Shown here: piece after piece, positions 522-63,914 of the stretch | How the letters are laid out: each line of letters starts with the position of its first letter | Numbering within the stretch: position 1 is the first letter of the stretch | From: Astropecten irregularis | Taxonomy: Eukaryota > Echinodermata > Asteroidea > Paxillosida > Astropectinidae | Assembly: GCA_963971285.1 (NCBI GenBank) | Contig: OZ020244.1 | Span: 25,358,001 to 25,422,000, forward strand | Direction: 5' to 3' | Length of the DNA: 64,000 bases | Notes under the pieces: model-generated | What the model was told of the DNA's origin: nothing | Database searches by the model: none | Seen by the model: only the letters and a program-made list of their open reading frames with translations | Program-made: the position numbers and the translations under genes

Positions 522-3493
522 AATGTTAGCAAATCCTCCGTCCTGGATAAGCCCAAGACCTTGTCGCCCATCGCCTCCAATGAATCAGAATCAATATTTT
601 CAGATCATGTCGACGATAAACAGGACGCTAGACGACTTGCGCACGTCCAGACGGGGTGTAATCGATGCGACTCTTCCAAGTTCAAAGGCCGTGAAAGGTA
701 TACACATTATCCCGACATGCAGTACATGCTATACTGAGCTTTCATGTAATTCAGCCTTTTAAAGGTAATCATGGGCAAAAATATCAAGAAAGATACAGTA
801 GCCATGGGTGTCGATCCCGGGGGGAAGTGGGGGGGGGGGGGAGTTACCCCCTCAATATTTAAGATGGGGGATGGCGTATATTATCACCCCCCAATATTTT
901 GAGGTTGAATGTCATTCAAGTTTATTGTATAGAAATATTACGTAATCCTCAACTTGTTTTTTGTGTCTTCACAGTGAATTTATACTACACATTTAATGTT
1001 TAATTCTTCTGAATATCGTTTTTAAAAGCTCTAAAATGCGACTTTTCGACTCTGTTTCAATTAAAAAGTCCCTGGTTTGGGAGGGGGGGTATCCCACCTC
1101 CCACAGTCTCCCCGGCTCGGTTGCTTCGCTCCCGTCCCTCGCATGGGACACCAAATCACCAATCACCCCCCCCACCCCCCCCCCCCCCCCCAATCATGAC
1201 AAAAAAATCGACAACAGTGCTGGTTGGAAAAAACTCGGGCTGTGACGTTGCAAAAGCAAGGTCTATACGGTTCCACTGACATTTTGATAGCTCTACAGAG
1301 CAGACGACGAGAGCGAACTGAACTATTGTAGATGTAACAGTAAAGGCCTTTTCACACGACGCTCACCTCCCACAGCCTCCCCGGATCGGTCGCTTTGCTC
1401 CCTCGCATAGGACACCAAATCACCAATCACCCCCCCCCCCCCAATCATGAAAAGAAATCGACACCAGTGACAGTAACAGTCATCTGTGAAAATTTCAGTC
1501 CCATACGACGCCCACTTTTTGAGAAAACAGTGAAAAACGGCCACAGTGTTTCTTTAGTCTTTTCTCTTTTATTTTTGATCTTTTAAAAAGACCTTTTTTC
1601 TTCATGTTCTCAATATTTTCCGACAGAAAGGGAATTTTGCGACGCTCATCCACTCCCAATAGCTTCTCCTGGTGGACAATCAATCAAGTGCGCCCTCTAG
1701 ATGCAGTAATTGAAAACGATATGAATCAAACCCCCTTCGAGACAGCTGGACGCCATGTTACTTGGAGCGATCAAGCAGGGACGTCGGCAAAAGACAGAAC
1801 CGAAATTTCTACAAAGCAGGTAGGCCAATCACTGAAACAGTTTATGAGTTCTTTTCATGAAAAAGAAACAACATAAATAGGCCTGCTTGCCGAATATCAA
1901 ATATCACCTTTGTCTTCCCTTGTGAAACTAAAATGCATGGGAAGCAATTGCGGGACATCATTGCAAGATCTACAATCGGAGAGAAGAATTGAAAAGCAGG
2001 AGGTGAAGGGTTCGAATCCAACCTGAACCAGCATGTGATTTTTTCACGTGCACTTTCAAGCACTGAGTATACAGTACTCATCAACGTCAGTAAAGGACAA
2101 GCCTAATCATTTATCTCCCGACCAAAATCATTTAATGCTCATGAAGAATTGAGTTGTCTATTCAGCATTATCAAAAAGTCATCGAAAGGTGAACTAAGAA
2201 ATATTGACTGGAGAGGGATTAAAAAAAAAAATTTCAGAAAGGCTTGTCAGAAAGAAAAGTCTAATACAGCTGCGTCAGTGAATGGAGTCGTTTATTTGTT
2301 CAAATTTCCTCGATCTTTACGCACCGCAGAAGACCAGTCCAAAGTCAGATCCTCCTCGGCCCAAGTACCTAGACGTCTCGGAGGCCACAAATGAAAGCAG
2401 ACTGATAGACTCGGCCACGTTAGATGCGCGTTACCGGTCGGTCCGGCCTGAGCAACTATCTCTCCTTGCAAGGAGGGTGCAACCCTCCGAGAATTCACCC
2501 GTATTCATCTATGAATCACCGCTAGTACCCGAGTCGCCCACGGGACCAGAGCACGGAGAACCAGAAACTTCCACTGTCGACAATGTGTTTGGAAAGCTCC
2601 CTACAAAGTCCACAATCGGCACACAAACTGCTGAAGGCGCTGGAGGGAGGACACCGGTTCGGCGTGTCCATTCGCCAACCGGCGTGCCGACGTTCTTTCC
2701 GTACGGCGATCTGGACCCGGTAAGAACCGTCCGCGGAGAAACGGTGCACGTGCCCAGTGGTGGCTTCGGCATCGGGACGGTCATGCGTCTGAGGGAACCA
2801 CCCAACTCGTTGGTGGTCGTGCTGGAGCGACGCCCGTCAACCAATGACGCTCTCATCAAGAATGAATGCAGAGCCCTCATGGCTGTGCAGGGCCACCCGT
2901 CGTTTCCAAAGCTCTACGGGATGAAGACAGGACACCACCTATCAACAGTAATCGAATTCGTTGGTAACCGACAGACACTGACAACCCTCAGCTTATCGCT
3001 CGCAGTGCGCCTAAATCGACACGATGGAATACCTCCTCACGATTGGGTCTTGATCGTCTTGGATGTTGCGAGCGGTCTGGACCACCTGCACTCTAGAGGA
3101 TACGTGTACTGCGACCTACGGACCGACGGCGTACTCTTGTGGAAGGACAAGTGGAGATGGAGGGCTAAGATCGTCGATCTGACGGGCACCGTCACCGCGG
3201 AGCAAGCTCCGGGCGCCACGGTCCACTTCGACTGCGGGCCGTGCGCTCGCCAGCGTGTCTACCCTCACCTGGCCCCGGAGATTCTGGACTCAGAGACGGG
3301 CCTTACTCCACGAGCGGACGTGTATTCCCTCGGTTATTTGATGAAGGAGACTGCACACGTTTCACAGCACCGTACCAAGCTGGTCATACTGGGCGACCAG
3401 TGCTGCTCAACGACGCCAAAATACCGCCCATCCCTACAAGAGGTGATAACCAAGCTAATGATATGGGCCTGTCAAAATGTAAAATCTCCATGA
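522..3493 (+). CDS. Protein-kinase-fold protein, probable pseudokinase (5' end missing)
   Basis: Three exons join in frame: 522-697, 1627-1819 and 2330-3493 (phases 0, 2, 0), giving at least 510 residues. Earlier exons probably lie left of the window. The first ~250 residues are Ser/Pro/Thr-rich and not recognisable. The kinase fold follows in the last exon. There is a glycine loop GGFGIGTV (2759-2782), a Glu for helix C in NECRAL, a catalytic-loop equivalent YCDLRTDGV (3107-3133), VDLT in place of the DFG region, then LAPEIL, ADVYSLG and RPSLQEV. The VAIK lysine is replaced by Leu (VVVL), HRD reads YCD, the loop Lys is Arg, the Asn is Gly, and DFG reads DLT. The catalytic Asp remains but nucleotide and metal binding look impaired, so a pseudokinase or scaffold role is inferred. 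The kinase fold is certain. The family within the kinases is not recognised. The exon 522-697 is supported by splice signals and matching phase only. Confidence 0.75.
780..1620. repeat. Kinase-gene intron with G/C runs and MITE fragments
   Basis: Contains poly-G/poly-C runs at 822-842 and 1166-1190, a duplicated motif around CCTCCCACAGTCTCCCCGG (1100 and 1370), one CCTTTTCACACGACGCT terminal repeat at 1349, and a partial copy (from 1478) of the CATACTTTGG MITE described at 33062. No exon seen. Confidence 0.5.
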
Positions 3494-11100: not shown

Positions 11101-14100
11101 TTTTTCTGCCTGAAATGCTGTATTTATCCAGAACAAGAGTAAAATCAGTGACCAAAGACAATTTTGATCTTCGGAACTAGATCACAAATGACGATGAAAA
11201 GATTTTAACCTATCCCTTGACTCCGATTAAAAAATGTGTTAATGGAATAGCAAGTATTTACGATTACTTGAAAAGCGTAGAAATATGAAAAAAAGAGGTA
11301 ACTTACATTTCAAAAATGTTGACGGTTTGGGGACATTTTATTATCGTCGTTGCCACAAGCAAAGTATGATATCACAATGCGAGTTATACTGTATAATAGC
11401 AATACAGATAATTAGGCATAATTTTCTAAATTGAGCTCGGATGTGTAATATTGTACTCCTGCATAATTATTTGAACAAGGCCTAATATTATATAAGTGAT
11501 TAGGGATTAGTTGGAAACAAAATTTTAAATAATTATTACATGAATATTTTGCGCGTTTGAAAGTAATTGTACGTAACAGAATCATAAATATAGAATAATA
11601 ATATTTATTCTTTTGATATCTATGAACAGAATAAGCCGGACCCTGGATTAAAGGGAATATGCAACATTGGTCACAAACCAAAACAGAAATCTTCACAGAT
11701 TTATGTAACTTAATTACAGGGTATAACGACGATAATGGTAGAAAGTTAGAAAACAGTACTGTAAAAATTGCTTTGCTTGAAATGCTGTTAATCCAAATAC
11801 TAAACCATTTTCAATCTTGGAAAGATCAATATGAGACAGCTATTCCCACACAGTTTGGCGTAACAATAAATATTGCAAAGGTTTTTCGCTGTTTTCTACT
11901 GCCTCCAAAGTAATGATCAATTGAGCTGATAATTTCACAGGTTTGTTTTTATTCCATGACAAGTCAAATTATGAACAGACCACAACCGTCCTATCAACTT
12001 TATACCAAAGTATGATAGTATATATACATTTAACACAACGGTTTTAGAGGCCACTTCAAAATGCGGCATTTTGATAAAAATAATATTTCAGTTATTACCG
12101 GTAAATGAAAAATGTCCCGATGGTATACTTTTCACCAGGATTTCCATAATTTTCAACTCCAACCTCTCAGTTTTTCTTTCTTTGAGTGAGTGACACAGGC
12201 CTTCGTGTAATCTAATCACGATTTTGTGATTTGGAATTTGTGTTTTAATAATACGATTTCAATATAATTCGTTCTCTTTGTTGAAGCATCCTGCCATGGG
12301 CAGGATGCCTGCTAGCTTGTGTCAGTTATCACAACGCCAGCTCGCAAATTGGCTTGTGTAAACCGTACCATATAACCTTGGCATTATGATTAATTCTATT
12401 TCGGTGCAGGGTACGTACGTAGTGAATACACGTATAACGTACAAGCTTACTTAACCAGAGTAAAGATTCAAAGCGACATTGTATATATGGACAAGAATAT
12501 TATATTTTGCTCTATTGATAAAACTAAGGCAGCAATACTTGGACTGCAATCTATAGAAAGAAAGCTGACTGATGCAAAGCAGGCATACATGCCGGGATGA
12601 TCATTCAATGACAGAGATTCTATCAAAAGCTGGAACCAATTTTCGTTTTCCCAGTTAAAAAAACCTATTAGGTGATGAAGTCCATGGTAGAAAATTAGCC
12701 AACAAGCTTACAGGTGGATTTATTTATTAGGTTATTGATCACCTTGCCATGTATGTACGTGCCCCCTTCCTTGGCTGAGTACCCCAGGGATTGCTCTCTG
12801 TTAAACATTTCGCCAAACAGAAAATATGTAATTGATCACTGATTATCATACTGTCTGAAATATTATTAGGGCCGATTGCAAGTTTGTTATATCATGCTGT
12901 ATGTTGAATCAGATATTTTGTCGCTGTTCTGTGACCTTAAATGTACCGTGTATGGTACATGCTGGATTAGACAAAGTGTGGGAGCTGTTCTGCAATCATT
13001 ACCAATCATGTATTATACCTTGAAGGTAGTATAGGCCTATCATACTTTGGCAGTATACCGAAACAGAAACAGGGTATAAAGATGGTGATAGTAGAAACAT
13101 ACCGTTACATTAATATTCATTTTTCTACCTGAAAGGCTGTACTTATCCAGAAAAGAGTTAAAAAAAAACCAATTGACCAAAAACAATTTTGATCTTCGGA
13201 AAATCAAAATCCTGCGAAAAGAGTTTAAAATATATATTGTGGGCGTTTTTCAATGTTTTATCAAAAAATGGGCACCGCATGGGACTAGAAATTTCACAGA
13301 TGACTGTTACTGTATCTTCCATGAAATTTCTGCTCATGAATCTGCATTTCTTTGACAAAAACCAAAGTATGATATTACCAGTCATCTGCTGTTATCCCTT
13401 TAAACGGCAAAATGTCCCCGGTGATGAAATTCAAATCAACCCCGGCCCAAACTTCCAAATAATGCCTTGCAATTTCAATTTGCGCAATTTTATCGTTAGT
13501 CGATGCTCCAAAAATTCATCGGTTTTTACATGCGCGTCTGTCCAAATGCCGGCAGAATGTTGGAAAATTGGATTCGCACTTAAACAAATTGCAGTTGACT
13601 TGGATTTGTAATGAAGTTAACATTGCGGTTAATCATAATTACTGGCACTATGGGCAACCATTATGTTGGGATCTCTAGAATATCACAAGGTATGCAGACC
13701 GGATTCAAGCCTTACTCAAGCGTCTTGGGACCAATTTTATAGAGCTGCTTAAGCAAAACTCTTCCTTGATCAAACAGGATTATATACCAACCAAAATTTG
13801 TATTAGATGTTAACTGCTTTTGACTTGTATTCGGCCATTGTTTGCTGAGCATAACATTACAAGGAGTTTTGGCTGGCATTCTGATTTGATTTACCAAGGT
13901 TTTTGGTGCTTAAGCAAATGTTGGTGCTTAAGCAGCTCTATGAAATTGGCCCCCGCTGAATCACATATCATCTCGGACACATAGTTATGTCGCCAAACAA
14001 TTTGAAGATAGTGCCAAGCTTGCTTATAATTTCATTGTTTAGGCCTATATTTCTTCCGAGACTGGGGTCGATTTCACCAAGCTATCAATTTATGACGTAT

Positions 14101-46300: not shown

Positions 46301-49300
46301 AAAATTGATAAACTTAAACCGAAAATAAAAACGTGTTTTATCCTTATCCCTTATCTCCACAGGTTTAGTATAACTTACAGGGTATTAAGATGGTCATGGT
46401 AGAAACATACCGTGAAATTTTTCTGCCTGAAATGCTATATTTATCAACAATAGAGTAAAACCAATTGGCCCAAACAGTTTTGATATCATAAAGATTACAA
46501 CTCCTGAAAGTATAGATTTTTTAAATACCATTGGGTTTTTTTCACTGTTTTCTCAAAAAGTGGGCACCGTATGGGACTGGAATTTTCACAGATGACTGTT
46601 ACTGTATCTTCCTTGATATTTGTGCCCATGAATCTGTATTTCTTTGATAAAAACCAAAGTGTGATATTCCCTTATCTTACCGTAAATTTACCTAAGTTTG
46701 ACAAAGACACTGTCTTGAATCTCATACAGGTGCAAGTTGAGCTTCAACAGATGGAATTCATCACCAAATACCCGGTGCAAATGCAGCGAAGCCTGATACG
46801 GACCGGGGCCTTCGAGAGCTATGAATCGGGCCGTGTAATCATCCGTCATGGCAGGCGACCGTACGCCTTCTACCTGGTCCTAGGCGGCTCAGGTATACAC
46901 AGGGTGCCCCCCCCCCCCCAAAAAAAAAAAAAAAAATCAGATATTTGATACAACCATGTCTTCGTTGGCTATCACCATGTAGAATTTCAGCACAATTGAA
47001 TTGAAATTTAGAGAAAAAACTAAGACTGAATTACCCAACCTCAAAACCCAATGTTCATCTTTCTTATGTGTGTATTGACCACTTATTCTGGAATACTGCA
47101 AATTTGTTTTTAAAGTGTACTCTTTTAATTGGTCATATTTTCGCCAATTTCAGCCCAATTTTGCTGAAATTCTACATGGTGATAGCCAAGACATGGTTGT
47201 ATCATATAGCTGAATCTTGAAGTGATAAACAGTTTGATTTTAACATTATTGGTTTCCGATAAAATGTTTTTTTTGGGGGGACACGCTGAATACCCCTCAC
47301 TCTAAGCTCGGATGGACAGTTTTTGCACTGCTTCTCTCTCTTCAAGTACCGTTTGTTTGTCGTAGGATTGTGACAGATATATACCAATTGCCTGAACCAT
47401 CAGTTTGTGAGGATCTGTTTTAAAGGGCATGTACAACATTGGTAACAAACCAAAACAGAAAATGCTCACAGATTTACGTATAGATTACAGAGTATGAAGA
47501 CTGTAATGGTAGAAACATACTGTTTTGATTTTTTTGCCTGAAATGCTGTATTTATCCAGAAAAGATTAAAACCAAACACCAAAACATTTTTTTATCTTGG
47601 CAAGAAATAGCGACAAATATAACGGCTTTTTGTTATTTTCTACTGTTTCCAGTGATCATTTGAGCTGAAAATTTCATAGGTTTTGTTTTATATTCCATGA
47701 CAAATCAAACTGCACAATATGTATCTGTTCTGTCACCTTTACCAATCCTGTATTATACCTTTAGTGGTGTAATAACGAGTATACTTGATCATAAAATCCT
47801 AATATATTGCCCGTTTTATTTTTTTTTATAGCTCTTTCATTGGAGGGAGATCCAGAGAACAGTGGGAGACCAGCCAATGCTCTGCTTAAAGGACATGTAT
47901 TCGGGGTGCGTCTGTAATTATTATAATCAATTATTATAATTATGTTATCACGTGTTCATCCTCTGACCAATCAGGATGAGGACCTACCGCACGTAGATAA
48001 CTTCCAGCCAATCAAGTGACCGAATTGAAATTGTATAATGTTTATAGCCTTCTAGAAAGATCCTGCTATAGGATCCAAACGTCGGGCCCACCCAACTCCA
48101 AACATTGTATGTATTTCAGGTCATTATTTTGGAAGTTGGTGAGCAGTTTGCATCAGTTTATTACTTGTATTTCTAAAGTTTTAAGTAGATAATGATTCCT
48201 CTGATATCCAGCGGTGTATCTATGGAAAATGGCGCCCGGGGCAAGCGCTAAAATTGCGCCCTTTATTCCAACTTCCGATGCCAATGAAACAAAACAGAAA
48301 TCAGACAATTTAAAATTCGAATCTTTCTTTGTTTGTTGATTGGATTAGATTTCCAATAACTTCACTGACAGTACAGTTTCCCTTTTGGCTGCGTTTTTGC
48401 GCCCCCTAAAAAGTGGCGCCCGGGGCACGTGCCCCCCTTGCCCCCCCCCCCCCCCCCCACTACTGATATCTGATTCGTGTCGAATATTCTTAGTAATGTG
48501 AGATCATGAATAATTATGCTTGGTTGTATTTGTATTTGTTTTTGTTTTACAGCATGAAGCAATCGTGAGTCGTGGACGCCATAACATCACGGTGATATCG
48601 AAGGAGCACATTCAGCTTCTGAGTCTGACTGTAGAGGTATGTTGAAAAGATATTACAATCAAGATTACAATTGGTATGTGGATCGGTTTGCGGAAACACC
48701 ATGTAAGAATCTTCGTACCGTTTCGCACTGTTTCGTTCGCACTTCTCGTATATATTCTCTGATATTGCATTCCTTTCATAAAATACAATACTGGTATTCA
48801 GTCATCAGAATGAGTGTTTATAACTGAATACATTTGGCTCTCGTGTAAATAAATCAAACTTAGGGCCTTTACGAAACCTGGCTTGAGGCTAGGCTTAGTA
48901 CTTATTTCCCTACCGCCATTTGAGGCCCACAAAATGAACTGAATGGATTGTGCAACACTACGAAGCCGAAGAAAGGCTCCAGCTTCACCATGTATCTCAA
49001 GCCCTTCATTTCATTTAGGACACAAAATGGCGGTGGTAAAATAAATTCCAAGCGTAGCCTCAAGCCTTATTTCGTACGGGCGATTCCAAATTAGTGCGCT
49101 ACCAAGAGTTTGCAATGCTTTGACCAATCACGATGCATGGAATTTGTTGACCCATTGCGCATGTACAATAGAAAGGGTCTACCATTGATCTAGATTATAC
49201 ATTGAAGATGAAGCATCGACTCTGACACTTTCTTCATCTTTTTTCTCAATATTGTATAGGAGTATTCGCGAATATTCTTAGCTGGCGGTGTGAGTAACAT

Positions 49301-52300: not shown

Positions 52301-54815
52301 CAGATCCATGAGCAAAAATATCAAGTGAGATACAATAACAGTCATCTGTGAAATTTCCATTCCCATACGGTGCCCAGTTTTTGAGAAAACAGTGAAAAAC
52401 GCCCACGATATTTTGAAATCTTTCCACGGGATTTTTGATCTTTCGAAGATCAAAATTGTTCGTGTCAATTGTTTTACTTTTTCTGGATAAATTCAGCATT
52501 TCAGGCAAACAAATTAATTTTTTTAACGGTATGTTTCTATCATCACCATCTTTATACCCTGTAAGTCATAGGTAAATCTGTGAAGATGTATGTGTCGGTA
52601 TGCTACTACCTTTCATAGCAGCTGCCCTAACAAGTTTGAGATCTCATGTTGTTTAAAGATTATCTTTTCTAACTGTTGTTGCTCCATCTTAGTATTCGGT
52701 TCATATTATGCATTGAAGTCGGTCTACATAACAAAAGTCAGTGTAACCGTCATTACATTGTTGCACATTGTACAATGCAAGTGCCCAAAAGAGGGCGTCC
52801 TTCTCATCTCGTCGAAAGTTTGGCCGCTGCATGATATTTTTATGATTTTGATTGACGGGACCAATTCGGTGTATTAATATATTTGCTAATGTTGGCTAAC
52901 TCGATATACAATATGATTCCTTTTTAAGAGATGTTTCCCCCTTTTTTAACACCCAATAGACATGAAGTGCTGGTGTAAAGGTTAAATCTGTCCCCTTTTA
53001 GCCGACGCTAAATCGTAATTTGCGAAATATGCAGTTCTAAATGCTGATTCTTGTCGTTTTAGCTTCTTGCTGCAAATTCCAGACAAGTTCTCCATCCTTT
53101 TCATCTATTTTCGATCGTGTCCACAGAAAGCACAATAGTTAGCGAGTCTGTCGACATTGGCCATACCGAGCCCAGCATCGATCCACTACCGTCTGTCGCC
53201 GCTGCTCAACCCGGTGACGAGTTTAGCTATCATAAGGTTTGTTTGTTAAAGATAACTGAAGAATATTAAGTTTGATCCAATGATTCTTTACGAAATAATT
53301 AGTCTTTGATGCAATGAACTGCCTGCTGTGTACCGTGTATAATACATGTACATGTATAATGTATGATTGGTAAAGGTCACAGAACAGCACTAACACTTTG
53401 TCTGATCCAACATGTACATAAAATTACAAATCTGTGAACATTTGAGCTCAATCAGACATCCGAGTCACGAGAAAATAGCAAAAATCTGACTTAATTTTTT
53501 ATAAAACATAAAGAATGGTTTTGATCTTACCCCGAGATCAAAACTGTTTTCGGTCAAGGATTAGGTGGCATTTTGTTCTGCAAAATTTGCATGCCGACGT
53601 GACTACAAATAATGTTCGTTTTTCCATGATAATGTAATCGACAGTCGTCTGCAACTACCAACATGGGGCGAGACATGTTTGTGCAAGTTGACACTTTGGA
53701 ACGAGGGGCGATCTTCGTAAGTATAACTTGTTGAAGAATAAAGATATGTACATGTACGTATACGCCTTAGTTAATAGGACGGTGCAGTATTGTATTATAT
53801 CATGTCTAATACAAAGTACCGGTATACAATTTTGTGTAGATATTTTGTCGTCCTCAGAAAAGAATAAGTTCAAAAGCAAAACACATTATTAGGGTGGAAG
53901 AAAAGCAATTGCAGAGGCTAGTTAAGCTAGTTAAGGCTAGTTTTTAATTTTACTTAATTTTCACCGTAATGATTCGATTTCCTCGACAGGGTGTATCGGA
54001 CATTGTGTTCGGCAACCAGCCCAGTCTGTGTCTGGTCAGTAACGGTGCAGAGTGCGTCCTGATTGCTAAGAAGTTCTACGCCAAGCACGCCACGGAGAAA
54101 AACCTCAAGGCCATAACAGATCTGGTAAGTTCACTGTCTGTAACTGTAGAAGGAGCTTAATTACTTCATATTCTCAGCTTGGAAGAAAAGTTGTTATTGG
54201 TGCCAAGGGATAGACTGTCCGCGTGCAGAGTGGTCTGACTGCGGCTGCATTATGGTGGACCACGGGTCATGATTATGTCACACCAAGCATGCGCACAGCA
54301 TTAATTGATCCATTGTTTTGGTGTGCTGATTGCTGAGTTGTTTTATATGACCATGGGCCAATTTCATAGAGCTGCTTAACGCCAATTTTTGCTTGAGCTT
54401 GAATAGCCTTCCTTGGTCAAACAAGATTTTGGTGACTGCTTAAGCAGCTCTATGAAATTGGCCCCTGGTGACGACCAGCTCAACTGCCTCAGTTGATTTT
54501 ACTCAGCTAAAACCGCCACACCGACATGAATGGGTTTGCCAAACTCTCTGATTGATCAATGTGTACTATATAATAATTGAACCATCATTGGTAGAGTAAT
54601 TTTGTTTGTAACCCGTCTGACAATATCAGCTCCGGCCATATCCGACCGAGGACACCCTCCTCCGTGACCTACGGGAGAAGCTGACCTGGCAGGACCACCG
54701 GGACAAGACGCTACTGGACACGGCACGGAGTCTGAGACGGCACCGCCGCAAGAGCTTACCCGGCATAGGGATGCATGCACCGACTACACTAAGCATGAGC
54801 ACATCAGGTCATTGA
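43368..54815 (+). CDS. CNBD2-like cyclic nucleotide-binding protein, copy B
   Basis: Sixteen coding exons give 815 residues: 43368-43841, 44439-44518, 45526-45646, 46181-46255, 46730-46892, 47832-47905, 48553-48636, 49260-49408, 50044-50104, 50863-50935, 51470-51921, 52097-52235, 53127-53236, 53645-53716, 53990-54124, 54630-54815. Layout follows copy A: a basic disordered N-terminus, the LLLMRMCR helix, a first cNMP domain at about 251-380, a second domain beginning SDWIYVLKSG and resuming at GVSDIVFGNQPS, separated by a long Ser/Pro/Thr-rich insert (about 452-650). In the first domain the cassette reads FGHEAIVSRGRHNITV. The FGE Glu (330) and the phosphate-binding Arg (339) are both His, so canonical cyclic-nucleotide binding is probably lost or altered. 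Exon 49260-49408 (149 bp) equals the two copy-A exons of 71 and 78 bp fused. The C-terminus is Arg-rich (RSLRRHRRKS) like that of copy A (KRSRKRNSKQR). It ends tail to tail with the EctC-like gene. Confidence 0.82.
43985..44065 (-). repeat. Fragment of the hammerhead-carrying repeat
   Basis: Inverse of GGATCGGTTTGCGGAAA, ACCATGTAAGAATCGTTTCG and TTCGCACTTCTCGC. The hammerhead core itself is absent. In CNBD2-B intron 1. Confidence 0.6.
44204..44258 (+). repeat. Hammerhead-like stem-loop remnant
   Basis: ATCCTGCTAGGAT hairpin then CGGAACGCATCAGGCC. Same family as 36688, more degraded (GAAAC to GGAAC). Confidence 0.4.
44570..44808. mobile_element. GGCTCCGGCTCC-family MITE, inverted sister copy
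   Basis: GGGGCCTTTCTCAAAGCTCGG then (GGCTCCGGCTCA)n. The right end is GGAGCCGGAGCCGAACTTTG..AAGGGCCC. Starts 52 bases after the CNBD2-B exon ending at 44518. Confidence 0.75.
45038..45281. mobile_element. GGGGCCAATTTCATAGAGCTG-family MITE copy
   Basis: Left GGGGTCAATTTCATGAATCTG, right GGGCCATGAAATTGGCCCC. The interior is like the first part of the long element at 35381 (TTGATATTCATGGTCAGCGAAC). Confidence 0.72.
46365..46680 (-). mobile_element. CATACTTTGG MITE copy, reverse
   Basis: ACTTACAGGGTATTAAGATGGT to TTTGATAAAAACCAAAGTGTGATATT. Ends about 50 bases before the CNBD2-B cNMP exon at 46730. Confidence 0.68.
46899..47292. mobile_element. CAGGGTG(TCC) Tc1/mariner-type MITE abutting a splice donor
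   Basis: Starts at CAGGGTGCCCCC about 7 bases after the exon ending at 46892, and ends GGGGGGACACGCTG. Inner inverted words ACCATGTAGAATTTCAGC and GCTGAAATTCTACATGG. Sister of 21504. Confidence 0.7.
47425..47765 (+). mobile_element. CATACTTTGG-superfamily MITE, mixed subfamily
   Basis: AAGGGCATGTACAACATTGG at the left, TTTACCAATCCTGTATTATACC at the right. The interior has TATTTATCCAGAAAAGATTAAAACC. Confidence 0.6.
48049..48095 (+). repeat. Hammerhead-like stem-loop remnant
   Basis: GATCCTGCTATAGGATC hairpin then CAAACGTCGGGCCC, a third member of the family at 36688. Confidence 0.38.
48231..48440 (-). mobile_element. GTGCCCCGGGCGC-family MITE, reverse copy
   Basis: GGCGCCCGGGGCAAGCGC and GCGCCCGGGGCACGTGCCCC flank an interior matching 28650-28858 inverted. 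Ends in a C run. Confidence 0.6.
48672..48755 (+). repeat. Fragment of the hammerhead-carrying repeat
   Basis: ATGTGGATCGGTTTGCGGAAA, CCATGTAAGAATCTTCG and TTCGCACTTCTCG. It ends before the hammerhead core. In CNBD2-B intron 7. Confidence 0.62.
48863..49082. mobile_element. GGGCCTTTACGAAATCAGG-family MITE copy
   Basis: GGGCCTTTACGAAACCTGGC to CAAGCCTTATTTCGTACGG. Interior GCTTCACCATGTATCTCAAGC as in the copy at 25108. Confidence 0.75.
49487..49742 (+). mobile_element. tRNA-derived SINE, forward copy
   Basis: A-box GTGGCCTAGTGGTCTGGGG and B-box GGTTCGAATCC, then a body with CAGGTGTAAATGGGTA and the tail TACTCCCCAGGGAG. In CNBD2-B intron 8. Confidence 0.8.
50213..50335. repeat. ACCACA-rich repeat (TACCACAGTGTGG family)
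   Basis: GTGGTAAGTGTGGTATCC, AATATACCACAGTGTGGCTTTTG and TGGTTTATTATCCAG also occur in this order at 63915-64000, cut by the window end. Confidence 0.65.
50491..50632. mobile_element. GGGGTCGATTTCA-family MITE copy
   Basis: GGGTTGATTTCACCAAACTC at the left, CGTAGGGCTTCGTGAAATCG at the right. In CNBD2-B intron 9. Confidence 0.65.
52258..52616 (+). mobile_element. CATACTTTGG MITE copy
   Basis: CTTAAAGGTAATATCGTGCG at the left, CGGTATGCTACTACCTTTCA at the right. Central TTTGATC..GATCAAAATTG. Starts 23 bases after a CNBD2-B exon. Confidence 0.7.
53335..53575 (-). mobile_element. Variant CATACTTTGG-superfamily MITE
   Basis: TGTATGATTGGTAAAGGTCACAG at the left and CCCCGAGATCAAAACTG near the right. 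Subfamily as at 19600, in CNBD2-B intron 13. Right end missing. Confidence 0.55.
54355..54465. mobile_element. GGGGCCAATTTCATAGAGCTG MITE, internally deleted
   Basis: Both ends intact, only 111 bp overall. In the last CNBD2-B intron. Confidence 0.75.
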
Positions 54816-55512: not shown

Positions 55513-56283
55513 TCATGCCTCAAATCCAGAGTAATTATCGGCCGTCTTGATTTGCTCTTCCTTCCCCGTCAGTACCGGGTACAGAATGCAGATGCAGTCG
55601 GAATATCCTTCATGGTTTTCCAAGGTGTGACTATCATGTGCATTCAGTAGGTAGTTGGTGCCATTCCCTGGGTCGATTCTGGAGACTTGGCTGACGTCAG
55701 CTCCGCTGGTATCCTGCCATCGATAGGTAACACGCCCGGACGTGTAGTACACGCTCTCGATGTGGTGTAGGTGAGCCAGTCGAGATGACGTCATGGGATT
55801 CAGCCTGGTCTTGTGAATGCCCAGCGGGAAGCCGTCGCGTTTGAGGAGGTACTGCCAGCTGTGGCCGTTCCCCCAGTCCACATCTCTCACGGTGCCCTCG
55901 ACTTCTGACAGCTGTCGAACGACGGCGAGCGACCGGTAGGCCAATTGAACGTCTGGATAGTAGACTACGAAAAGCCTCATGGCGCCCTCTGCCGATACTG
56001 CCATCTCGTATGTCATATCAGATGACATAGCCATCACGGTGTCTGGACATACATTCTGATCTTTCTCTGTCGACGAAACCGTTCCCTTCCCGCTGATGCA
56101 ATAATAGAAGTGCAGGCTCTTTTCACCATCGGGCGATCTCAGGGAAACGGTTGCTTTAGGCGGAATGCGGGCTTCGTAAACGGTAAAGTCTTTGAAATCC
56201 TCCTCAGTGGTCAGTTGGACACCGTTGAGGGCGCTGTTTGGAAGAGCGACCTCGCTGAGATCGACCGAGTGCGTGATTTTCAT
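55513..56283 (-). CDS. EctC-like double-cupin protein, copy 1 (ectoine synthase family)
   Basis: 256 residues in one coding exon. The start is the ATG at 56283, matching the paralogue's MK(I/V)THS start. A TTG two codons upstream is not used. Residues 121-256 align along the whole length of bacterial ectoine synthase: RDVDWGNGHSW, DGFPLGIH, HHIESVYY, NYLLNAHDSHTL, ILYPVLTGKE. The three iron ligands described for bacterial EctC (Glu, Tyr, His) correspond to Glu176, Tyr211 and His219, all present. Bacterial EctC closes N-gamma-acetyl-diaminobutyrate to the osmolyte ectoine. Whether this protein does so is unknown, and no EctA or EctB partner is in the window. Residues 1-120 look like a second EctC/cupin unit (HFYYCISGKGTV) lacking the ligands. 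A 5'-UTR intron is suggested by an acceptor at 56300-56299 and a donor at 56472. An AATAAA directly abuts the stop codon. Confidence 0.85.
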   Translation of the reverse strand: MKITHSVDLSEVALPNSALNGVQLTTEEDFKDFTVYEARIPPKATVSLRSPDGEKSLHFYYCISGKGTVSSTEKDQNVCPDTVMAMSSDMTYEMAVSAEGAMRLFVVYYPDVQLAYRSLAVVRQLSEVEGTVRDVDWGNGHSWQYLLKRDGFPLGIHKTRLNPMTSSRLAHLHHIESVYYTSGRVTYRWQDTSGADVSQVSRIDPGNGTNYLLNAHDSHTLENHEGYSDCICILYPVLTGKEEQIKTADNYSGFEA

Positions 56284-56871
56284 TGTCAATGAAGTTGGCT
56301 GCGAATAAAACCATTCAAGAAAAACAAAACCATTTTATTTCGAAAGTTAACTCGGTAAATGCACCTATAATCAATTCCTTGCACATGTGCCTATTTTAAG
56401 AAGCATGAAAACATGACAGTTGGATTAACGAATACAAATTACGAAAAAACGATCACTGTAAAATGCACTCACTTCCTCCTTGCGTGTTGAGTAGGCCTAT
56501 CCCTGTTGTAGTTATAGTCCCTACCTTTATCGAACTTGTACCTTCCAATGGGACCTATAGTGCTACCACATCATCACTCAAAATGGAAGACAATGACTAT
56601 AATCTGACCAAAGTACAGTACGTACAGAGTTCGTACGATTTATCTCGTTTGTGTACAATCTAATTGTTCAAATAAAATATAAAGAAAAATCCAGTCAAAT
56701 CCAGATACGCTTTATTCATAACTTTATACCAAATATGGCATTTTTTAATTCCTACTTCCCCAAACTGAAGATATTAGATATAAGACTTATCAAATGAGGT
56801 GCGTTTTAGGTCAAAACTCGATCGAGACAAATGTTTGTTTTGTCGTATCCCATGCAATTCTAGATACCCGG

Positions 56872-57049
56872 TGTGGCGGTCTCAGCTGTCACCCAGTCTC
56901 AGCTGCCCCCTTACCAAATATGGTCAAAAAAAGTCACGCCATCTCTGCGCACAATTCAACATCAACGAGAAAAACGTCCGTTTATTAATTGGCGTGCTAT
57001 ATTTCAGGGGGACAGCTGAAACTGGGAAACAGCTGAGACCGCCACACCT
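56872..57049. mobile_element. TGTGGCGGTCTCAGCTG MITE, second copy
   Basis: GTGTGGCGGTCTCAGCTGTC and CAGCTGAGACCGCCACAC are inverted. Lies between the two EctC-like genes, near the presumed promoter of copy 1. Confidence 0.75.
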
Positions 57050-57392
57050 GAACACTTTACTTGATTTTGATTATAATATTGTCTTTCTAATAACTAACAT
57101 GAAAATGAACAGGTATCGATAAAGAATCGAGTTACTTTTTTTTTATAATTCCTGAGTCATGGGTCCCCCGCTACACATCCCAACACAAAAGATTTCATGA
57201 TCATACAAAATGTAACAACCATACCTATATAGCTGCATTCTCAATGATTATTTTGAAGGAAGTTTTCGAGTATAAGTATTAATTAACTTCATTATTTTGA
57301 GACCCATAGTTGCAATATCATTTCTTTCCATTACAACCTATTTGGTCGTGTTGTTATTTTTACTGTCTTACATTTCTGCGAGGTATTTTGTT

Positions 57393-57398
57393 TTTATT
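57393..57398 (-). terminator. AATAAA polyadenylation signal of EctC-like copy 2
   Basis: On the minus strand about 50 bases after the TAG/TGA-type stop at 57449. Confidence 0.4.
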
Positions 57399-57448
57399 TC
57401 AGATGCTTTTTTCAGTTAATCAAAAGTGGTCAACTCTTTCAGTTTGTC

Positions 57449-58222
57449 TCAATCTTGATATCCTGAGTAGCCATCTTCAGTGTGCTGATGGTTCTCATTT
57501 CCAGTCAACACAGGATCAAAGATACAGATGCAGTAGGAATCTTGATCATGATTTTTGAGCACGTGACAGTCATGCATATTCATAAGATAGTTGGTGCCGT
57601 TCCCTTCGTCCACCCGTGAGTTTTCGTGCACCCACTCGCCGCTGGTATCCTGCCACCGGTAGGTCACTCGCCCTGATATGTAGTAGACGCTTTCAATGTG
57701 GTTGAGATAACCGAGTTTAGTGGAGGTTTTTGGGTACACCTGAGTGTTGTTGATACTCAAAGGGAAGCCATCTTGTTCGATCAGGAATCGCCGACTGTGA
57801 CCTCGTTCCCAGTCGATGTCTCGGTCTGTGCCAATCAATTCCGACAGACTTCGTACGACTGCTAAAGACCGGTAGGCAAACCCGACGTCTGGATAGTAGA
57901 CTACGAATAGCCGCATACCGCCCTCTTCTGACACCATCAGCTCGTAAGTCACATCGGAGGAGAGCGCCACCACGGTGTCTGGGTTGAGATTGATCTCTTC
58001 ATCCCCAATTCCAAGGAGCTTGCCATCCCCGCTGATGCAGTAGTAGAAGTGCACGTTTTTCTTGTCGTCTGCAGATCGCAGAGGAACAGAAGCCTTGGCC
58101 GGGATTCGAGCCTCAAAAACTGTAAAGTTTTTGTGATCTTTTTCGTGGGTCAGTTGGACGCCTGTGAGGGCGCTGTTTGGCAGAGATATCTCAGGGAGAT
58201 CAGCAGAATGGGTGACTTTCAT
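57449..58222 (-). CDS. EctC-like double-cupin protein, copy 2 (ectoine synthase family)
   Basis: 257 residues. The frame is open for 47 codons further upstream, but the ATG at 58222 is chosen because a strong acceptor (CTTGTCTTCAG) lies 13 bases before it and the protein then matches copy 1 from residue 1. The C-terminal EctC domain keeps RDIDWERGHS, DGFPLSI, NHIESVYY, NYLMNMHDCHVL and DPVLTGNENH. The iron-ligand equivalents are Glu177, Tyr212 and His220. The tail (EDGYSGYQD) is like the bacterial one (EDG.Y). The N-terminal half carries HFYYCISGDGKL with His in place of the Glu. A donor at 58621 (GTAAGT on the minus strand) fits a non-coding first exon. AATAAA occurs about 50 bases past the stop. 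Identity with copy 1 is roughly half by eye, so the duplication is not recent. Function is inferred from family only. Confidence 0.85.
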   Translation of the reverse strand: MKVTHSADLPEISLPNSALTGVQLTHEKDHKNFTVFEARIPAKASVPLRSADDKKNVHFYYCISGDGKLLGIGDEEINLNPDTVVALSSDVTYELMVSEEGGMRLFVVYYPDVGFAYRSLAVVRSLSELIGTDRDIDWERGHSRRFLIEQDGFPLSINNTQVYPKTSTKLGYLNHIESVYYISGRVTYRWQDTSGEWVHENSRVDEGNGTNYLMNMHDCHVLKNHDQDSYCICIFDPVLTGNENHQHTEDGYSGYQD

Positions 58223-62759: not shown

Positions 62760-63481
62760 TTAGTTCTTCCCCGTCACCTCTTTAAACTTTGCCAGTAGTC
62801 CGTCTTTCTCCCTGAGAACAAACGTCAGGCTTTTCCTCTGATAGTAATCTGGCAGGAGCTCTATATTCCCAATCACGTCTGACAGGAGGTGGGCCTTGGT
62901 GACCCCCGACCCAGGGGCATCAAATTTCAGATGGGTGACGTGGACGTGGAGGTGGTAATAGGAGGGCTGGTAGTGGAGGTACATCCTCAACTGGTCTGGA
63001 GGGACGGAGTACCTTTCCATGACAGCTTCCTGAAAAAAATAACAACAAACATCATCTCAGTCCAAACCAGTTTTGTGGCTTTGATAACTGTTACTTCAAG
63101 AATGTTTAAGTGCAATGGTTCGGACTTCGGAATGACTTGTCACTATACTTGATGTTCTCCAGGCCTGAGCAAATGGTTACCCGTAAGGGTAGATCAGTTT
63201 GCTGTGTTTGCATGTGTGGCAACCTTTTGACCTTTAATTGGTAGATATCTAACCTGGCACTTGTCTCTGATATTCCTCAGCAGTGGTAGATGTGTCTGGT
63301 CTAGGTCCCTCAGGCTCTTGATGCCTCTGCGGTGGCAGATGGCCACCAGGTACAGATTCTCCATCTGCTTCAGGTCCCACTTCATGTCTGGGAGCAGCAC
63401 AAAGCCATCCTGTGGGTCGGCATCCTCAAGGACGATGCGCTTCACCTCCTCAGCTGTCTTTTCCAGGATGTTGTACACCCA
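62760..63481 (-). CDS. DCPS: Scavenger mRNA decapping enzyme DcpS (last two exons)
   Basis: Hydrolyses the m7GpppN cap left after 3'-5' mRNA decay, releasing m7GMP. It is a homodimeric HIT-family pyrophosphatase of nucleus and cytoplasm. Two exons are visible, 63481-63254 and 63029-62760. They join in frame as ...[18 protein letters not shown]... and end at TAA. The first begins WVYNILEK, then [11 protein letters not shown] and [12 protein letters not shown], all typical DcpS segments. The second contains [17 protein letters not shown] with the histidine triad HLHVH (about 62940-62954), then [13 protein letters not shown]. Upstream exons for the N-terminal swapped domain are beyond position 64000, so this is a partial gene cut by the window edge, not a pseudogene. 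The C-terminal length matches the family. Recognition is secure. Confidence 0.93.
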
Positions 63482-63914
63482 CTGTCAGGAGTGGACACAG
63501 AACAGTTTATCAACGACCCTGCTACGCCAGTTAATATTGACTATTCTCTGGCAATGATGAATAAGCTGACCTCACATACTCAAAACCTGCTCTAACTTAA
63601 AGCCACCAGCAAAGTAAAATGGTCTGCAAGTTGCAACCCAGTCTCCTTCTTTCCCTGCATCCTGATTCGGATGCAGCCAAAGAATCTTTGGCTGCATCTG
63701 AATCTGTGGTCTAGAGCTAGGTCTAGGTCTTTGCTCCATTGGAAATATGCAGAGACACCAAGAAAATAGACCTAGCCTTAGCTCCGGAAGCCCGTTTCTG
63801 ACACGGCCTTAGTTGATAGCCAAATTTCGTTAAAACTTTTAATTTGATAATGTTACCACTTCATTAACCCTAACCCACATGCAAATTGGTTTACCCGAAA
63901 TGAATGTTTTTCCA

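Follow-up and report, generated by a model that had tools for sequence, protein, structure and literature searches.

Ectoine synthase (EctC, EC 4.2.1.108) is found mainly in bacteria (PMC5924519; this and the other articles given by PMC number are cited from part of their text). The iron ligands, in the Paenibacillus lautus enzyme, are E57, Y84 and H92; the substrate is contacted by W21, R25, N38, T40, Y52 and E57, and the product by S23, N38, Y52, E57 and F106 (PMC6344544). EctC forms homodimers with the subunits arranged head to tail, strand 1 of one chain pairing with strand 8 of its partner (PMC4795551). Beside the EctC proteins encoded in operons with EctA and EctB stand solitary or orphan ones, whose role has yet to be clarified: they have been suggested to be either remnants or enzymes for a relative of the ectoine precursor, and as a class they mostly keep the catalytic and substrate-contact residues (PMC6344544). 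A solitary EctC of Pseudomonas syringae yielded ectoine in a Halomonas elongata ectC mutant, in a dataset called not yet conclusive (PMC5924519). EctC-related sequences have also been reported in the deuterostomes Branchiostoma floridae and Saccoglossus kowalevskii (Harding et al. 2016, via PMC5924519 and PMC5796728). Here we analyse two tandem EctC-like genes, encoding the proteins P0001 and P0002, in a stretch of 64,000 nucleotides (the window) from the starfish Astropecten irregularis (assembly GCA_963971285.1, contig OZ020244.1, positions 25,358,001 to 25,422,000, forward strand). The novelty that an earlier note on this DNA had implied is smaller in view of the Branchiostoma and Saccoglossus reports. 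Our preferred reading, to which we give a probability of roughly 0.55, is that the pair encodes a non-ectoine, iron-dependent cyclodehydratase of the orphan class, as a two-barrel protein present in one conserved and one diverged copy.

The match to EctC across the C-terminal half of both proteins, on which the earlier note was built, proved sound. Profile searches, which that note had named as a check on the assignment, nevertheless came out divided. Against PF06339 (Ectoine_synth), whose curated cut-off is 27 bits, the C-terminal half of P0001 scored 76 bits (E 4.1e-21) and that of P0002 99.2 bits (E 2.7e-28), and at E<1e-5 no solved chains were matched other than ectoine synthases (5ONM, 5ONN, 5ONO and 5BXX, from P. 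lautus and Sphingopyxis alaskensis). With the NCBIfam ectoine synthase model NF009806, P0001 reached 78.6 bits and P0002 105.2 bits, both below the curated cut-off of 128, which all eight bacterial EctC proteins scanned (six orphan and two operon) passed with 152.9-190.5 bits.

The equivalents of the three iron ligands E57, Y84 and H92 are kept in both proteins, as had been noted before. P0002 retains the equivalents of S23, R25, N38, T40, Y52, E57, Y84, H92, C104, F106 and H116; every named substrate or product contact is therefore kept, apart from a displaced Trp. P0001 retains the iron ligands, S23 and T40, and is altered at four positions (R25 to Q, Y52 to H, F106 to L and H116 to Q) that are invariant in all 86 bacterial proteins examined. 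The His of P0001 at the N38 position was considered as a further loss and dropped, His being the commonest residue there in the operon-type clade described below (41 of 53 rows).

The two genes form a tandem pair of uninterrupted open reading frames (ORFs) on the minus strand, again as claimed earlier, and their products are 63% identical over the whole length. Their nucleotide likeness (69% over 712 nt) spans the coding part, and the pairwise estimates are 0.27 for nonsynonymous (dN) and 1.45 for synonymous (dS) substitutions. Because of these values and of the coding-part likeness, the sequences suggest an old duplication with constraint on the protein; the dN/dS ratio of about 0.19 is alike in the N- and C-terminal halves, although a pairwise ratio cannot prove constraint on each copy throughout. 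No third copy was found in the window. The gap between the genes contains a 41-nt inverted repeat (arms 56870-56910 and 57008-57048, 90% complementary), one arm of which also pairs with 54504-54523.

To place the pair among bacterial proteins, we scanned bacterial genomes at one per species, which gave at least 563 confirmed relatives. The best 80 genome loci together with six plasmid or phage loci make up a set of 86, which represents the proteins nearest to P0002 and not a random sample. In 47 of these loci ectA or ectB lies nearby; in the other 39 neither occurs in the stretch examined, some stretches ending at contig ends. A tree of 88 rows (86 bacterial and the two animal proteins, the only eukaryotic ones included) and 136 columns contains an operon-type clade of 53 rows, namely the 47 with ectA/ectB and six of the 39, which excludes both animal proteins with support 100/97. 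The animal proteins group with the other 33, orphan, rows in the free tree. In all three further trees, including one constrained to put the animals adjacent, the 53 rows hold together and the animals fall outside them. Under the LG+G4 model the animals join two Nocardiopsaceae orphans in the free tree, and forcing them to the operon side costs about 20 log units; when P0001 was omitted, P0002 fell on the orphan side in a quick tree with a Shimodaira-Hasegawa-like approximate likelihood ratio (SH-aLRT) of 95.

Two features separate the bacterial groups. The first is the motif WxxGxS, whose Trp precedes the W21 position by three residues: 33 of the 39 loci without adjacent EctA/EctB have it, as do both animal proteins, and none of the 47 loci with EctA/EctB does. 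A Trp shift in some orphans is described as one of two residues in PMC6344544; it is three in the present alignment. Position 21 itself is Gly in both animal proteins and, among the 53 operon-clade rows, Trp in 51 and Phe in two. The second feature is an S-x-Y tail, scored with the middle residue optional, F accepted for Y and at most three residues following: 30 of the 33 basal orphans have it, none of the 53 operon-clade rows does, and the two animal proteins end in SGYQD and SGFEA. The groups of 33 and 53 were drawn from the tree, so that their counts are not independent of it, whereas those of 39 and 47 are. By these residues both animal proteins bear the signature of orphan EctC, and not that of the operon ectoine synthases. 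P0002 is 33-43% identical to bacterial orphan EctC (14 + 4 orphan rows aligned).

The N-terminal half, which the earlier note had left unexplained, is also a cupin. An AlphaFold model of P0002 (predicted local distance difference test, pLDDT, 87.4; predicted template-modelling score, pTM, 0.87) has two cupin barrels, with residues 1 to about 115 in a cupin fold, and the whole chain resembles the bicupins oxalate decarboxylase and (S)-ureidoglycine aminohydrolase. Aligned by hhalign with bacterial EctC profiles, the N-terminal half gave probabilities of 88.5-93.5%; its score against orphans was 44.8, whereas 60 column shuffles scored no higher than 17.0 and the reversed profile 13.2. The sole NCBIfam family that this half matched was ectoine synthase (E 3e-4 and 3e-3). 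When it was modelled separately, its top PDB matches were three ectoine synthase entries, from a model whose alignment contained EctC rows. No EctC-type iron site is left in this half, since the positions of E57, Y84 and H92 read H/V/Y in P0002 and H/M/Y in P0001.

Among the bacterial matches listed none covered the N-terminal half: the best 80 of the at least 563 relatives match residues 83-257 or less, and in a plasmid scan, where 116 records matched, none spanned 80% of the query and this half was uncovered among the 40 matches listed. An N-half profile run against 398 genomes of one phylum, without a positive control, gave no match, and a whole-protein profile run against 291 genomes of another phylum gave matches in three, to the C-terminal half only. 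First scans of genomes and of viruses with the animal pair as query found no relatives; the phage scan matched one record, a contig also carrying ectB.

What orphan EctC proteins do in bacteria bears directly on the animal pair. We searched for EctA in 12 genomes chosen from the 33 orphan ones, six of the 12 being titled as metagenome assemblies. EctA exceeded the cut-off in two of them and was missing at that level from ten, and both positive genomes have another EctC gene no more than 2 kb from EctA. Some EctA match at E 0.001 or better was present in seven of the 12, but equally in seven of 14 control genomes. Among 26 neighbouring proteins scanned at 12 orphan loci, several orphans adjoin genes for adenylation, ketosynthase, non-ribosomal peptide synthetase (NRPS), polyketide synthase (PKS) or acyl-CoA dehydrogenase proteins; others adjoin a desaturase with an acetyltransferase, and others again creatinase-like peptidases. 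Over the larger set, adenylation or ketosynthase genes were found by BLAST near 13 of 33 orphan and one of 47 operon loci, with queries that were taken from orphan neighbours and so bias the comparison toward the orphan side. These surroundings would fit a role in specialised metabolism in which orphan EctC closes rings on carrier-bound or free amides.

Some single loci of the bacterial set deserve mention. The EctC proteins of loci L001, L004, L007 and L075 adjoin NRPS, PKS or ketosynthase genes, and no EctA or EctB was found nearby; L001 and L004 are annotated as ectoine synthase, and L001, L007 and L075 exceed the NCBIfam cut-off. For these four the ectoine synthase label probably over-reaches. 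On a Streptomyces plasmid (L005, 342-5405), ectB, ectA, a cytochrome P450, a ferredoxin, an adenylate-forming enzyme and a divergent EctC lie in one cluster, which possibly directs the synthesis of an ectoine-derived natural product.

On our preferred reading of the animal pair as an orphan-class cyclodehydratase, iron held by the Glu, Tyr and His of the C-terminal barrel would polarise an amide carbonyl; an internal amine would attack that carbonyl, and water would leave to give a cyclic amidine. The substrate would probably be related to, but distinct from, the ectoine precursor: an acylated diamine, an amide or an amino-acid derivative. The metal-free N-terminal barrel most likely replaces the second EctC subunit, so that the chain would form a covalent pseudo-dimer with one active site; by analogy with the bacterial homodimer, such a stand-in for the partner is the simplest role for a fused barrel of this kind. 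P0002 would keep the ancestral type of pocket, and P0001, its tandem duplicate, probably has a different substrate because its pocket has been remade.

Several observations weigh against this reading. With four invariant pocket residues altered, P0001 may be something other than a cyclase. Seven of the 13 orphans with assembly-line neighbours are related rhizobia, so that there are fewer than 13 independent cases, and 20 of the 33 orphans have no assembly-line gene nearby. For the N-terminal half, the comparison with column shuffles demonstrates kinship to cupins and not to EctC alone. In Pfam, Cupin_2 or AraC_binding ranks above Ectoine_synth for this half; in a PDB sequence search phosphomannose isomerase came slightly above EctC, with generic cupins about as strong; and the half did not align with the animal C-terminal half (blastp E 2.1; hhalign probability 0.1% with a two-row profile). 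In the tree the animal branch is long, at more than two changes per column, and under a mixture model the tree forcing the animals with the 53 scored 2.31 log units above the free tree, whose search had missed it (approximately unbiased, AU, test p 0.523); attachment just beside the operon clade is thus not rejected. The attachment point of the animal proteins is model-dependent. Given this, the long branch, the 136 columns for 88 rows and the lack of further eukaryotic relatives, a donor cannot be named from the tree.

The pair could instead be a true ectoine synthase, the animal making ectoine from a precursor supplied by EctA and EctB encoded elsewhere in the genome, by its diet or by microbes. 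The near-complete EctC pocket of P0002, the retention of the same residues by most orphans and the ectoine obtained, if not yet conclusively, with the solitary P. syringae enzyme all speak for this. We nevertheless consider it unlikely: the proteins carry the orphan-type signature and score under the NCBIfam cut-off, EctA and EctB queries of the window gave no match below E 0.76 (the earlier note had likewise seen neither gene there), ten of the 12 orphan genomes searched, metagenome assemblies included, lack EctA over the cut-off, and the ectoine pathway leaves the altered pocket of P0001 unexplained. The earlier note had offered three outcomes, namely ectoine, a cyclised amino acid related to it, and a cupin with a new function; the first of these is weakened, and the other two now come nearer, above all for P0001. 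A reverse or other reaction is conceivable too, the proteins hydrolysing cyclic amidines or amides, for example dietary ectoine-like molecules, or being non-catalytic cupins. EctC does hydrolyse synthetic ectoine analogues, but its hydrolysis of ectoine itself is negligible (PMC5924519). The P0002 model resembles the fold of (S)-ureidoglycine aminohydrolase 4e2q (template-modelling, TM, score 0.69), although at 14% identity this likeness is one of fold only. The four pocket changes of P0001 would suit a hydrolase or a non-catalytic protein, whereas P0002 has its iron ligands and a largely intact EctC pocket, and both halves show a low pairwise dN/dS; on balance we find such a reaction doubtful.

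That the genes are bacterial contamination, pseudogenes or an assembly artefact is a very remote prospect, even though EctC is mainly bacterial. Contamination is unlikely because exons of DcpS (m7GpppX diphosphatase) lie about 4 kb from the pair on the same strand, at 62760-63056 (E 1e-28 against solved DcpS chains) and 63194-63484 (E 3.5e-30). Both genes also have a predicted 5'-untranslated-region (5'-UTR) intron with plausible GT..AG ends at a similar site just 5' of the ATG, and an AATAAA signal; the introns were predicted by inspection, and the earlier description of these elements stands as a prediction. We reject contamination on the strength of the nearby DcpS exons, the predicted introns, the two intact paralogues with their low pairwise dN/dS, and an N-terminal half uncovered by any bacterial match among those listed; the earlier judgement that the genes are not contaminants is thereby upheld. 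The locus is eukaryotic and animal-like. Coordinates of the features are collected in Table 1.

Table 1. Features of the EctC-like gene pair and of its right flank (positions counted from the first nucleotide of the window).
Feature	Position	Strand	Description or basis
P0001 coding sequence	55513..56283	-	256 aa, diverged copy; retains iron ligands; changes at four pocket positions invariant elsewhere
P0001 N-half	55933..56283	-	degenerate EctC-like cupin; E57/Y84/H92 positions = H/M/Y
Predicted 5'-UTR intron, P0001 gene	56299..56472	-	GGAA/GTGAGT ... CGCAG/CC; splice consensus by inspection
AATAAA immediately 3' of P0001 stop codon	55507..55512	-	sequence
P0002 coding sequence	57449..58222	-	257 aa, conserved copy; N-terminal degenerate cupin and C-terminal EctC-type cupin
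P0002 C-half	57452..57868	-	EctC-type domain; iron ligands E177, Y212, H220; shifted Trp W138; S-G-Y near C-terminus
P0002 N-half	57869..58222	-	degenerate EctC-like cupin; E57/Y84/H92 positions = H/V/Y
Predicted 5'-UTR intron, P0002 gene	58236..58621	-	GAG/GTAAGT ... TTCAG/GAG; splice consensus by inspection
AATAAA downstream of P0002 stop codon	57393..57398	-	sequence
DcpS (m7GpppX diphosphatase) exons, right flank	62760..63484	-	matches to solved chains

The pair had been described as lying between clear animal genes, which holds for the right flank, where an ORF at 63572-63808 is a candidate further DcpS exon. The left flank is weaker than claimed: it offers a fragment (46508-46948, best E 0.04) resembling cyclic-nucleotide-binding sequences and, 52 kb from the pair, a plus-strand kinase-domain ORF at 2282-3493 (403 aa, uninterrupted; PF00069, E 1.1e-13). 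The ORFs near 13177, 17327, 46508, 52151 and 62155 share one protein string with few changes each and, read by eye, are a dispersed repeat family. A 30-nt inverted repeat (54350-54379 and 54440-54469, 97% complementary, 60-nt spacer) has the look of a short miniature inverted-repeat transposable element (MITE); this palindromic repeat, 54350-54469, may resemble elements of echinoderm genomes.

The closest described systems include the bacterial orphan EctC proteins, which share with the animal pair the WxxGxS motif, the S-x-Y C-terminus, the iron ligands and the substrate residues. The bacterial matches are, however, single-barrel proteins of about 125-130 aa; a further barrel at the N-terminus sets the animal proteins apart, and P0001 alters four invariant residues. 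Operon EctC (5ONM, 5BXX) is like the animal C-terminal half in fold, in E57, Y84 and H92 and, for P0002, in most substrate contacts; it differs in that the animal proteins have Gly at Trp21 with a Trp three residues earlier, end differently, stand outside the operon clade in the first tree, the quick tree and the three further trees, and are accompanied by no EctA or EctB match in the window. With its pair of cupin barrels the chain recalls 4e2q and oxalate decarboxylase, but identity to these is 12-14%, and the animal bicupin looks as if built from EctC-like barrels; the ligands and chemistry of (S)-ureidoglycine aminohydrolase and oxalate decarboxylase differ from those of EctC. The polyketide cyclase RemF (3ht1), a cupin cyclase, is a fold match of the N-half model (TM 0.73), at 16% identity and with polyketide substrates.

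The B. floridae and S. kowalevskii sequences, which we can liken to the present pair by description only, are EctC-related genes in deuterostomes as well. In the open-licence literature we found no study of an animal EctC-like protein, which is not proof that none exists, and the available part of a 2017 paper by the Harding group (PMC5447177) mentions neither EctC nor Branchiostoma nor Saccoglossus. EctC-like genes in deuterostomes have already been reported, and the double-barrel, orphan-type pair adds to them.

In conclusion, the label 'ectoine synthase' on such genes should not be taken as proof of ectoine. The pair, with one pocket kept and one remade, offers a eukaryotic model for substrate, expression and knock-out studies, and could reveal which of the two an animal lineage produces, a solute resembling ectoine or another cyclic metabolite. 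We would go one step further only tentatively, at somewhat less than even odds: the proteins may represent a dedicated animal enzyme lineage, in which two EctC-type barrels were fused into a one-site pseudo-dimer making a non-ectoine cyclic amidine or cyclised amino acid, and which later gave rise to two paralogues, one conserved and one re-specified. If this is true, the fused-barrel lineage is a sign that deuterostomes have a small-molecule pathway not recognised before.

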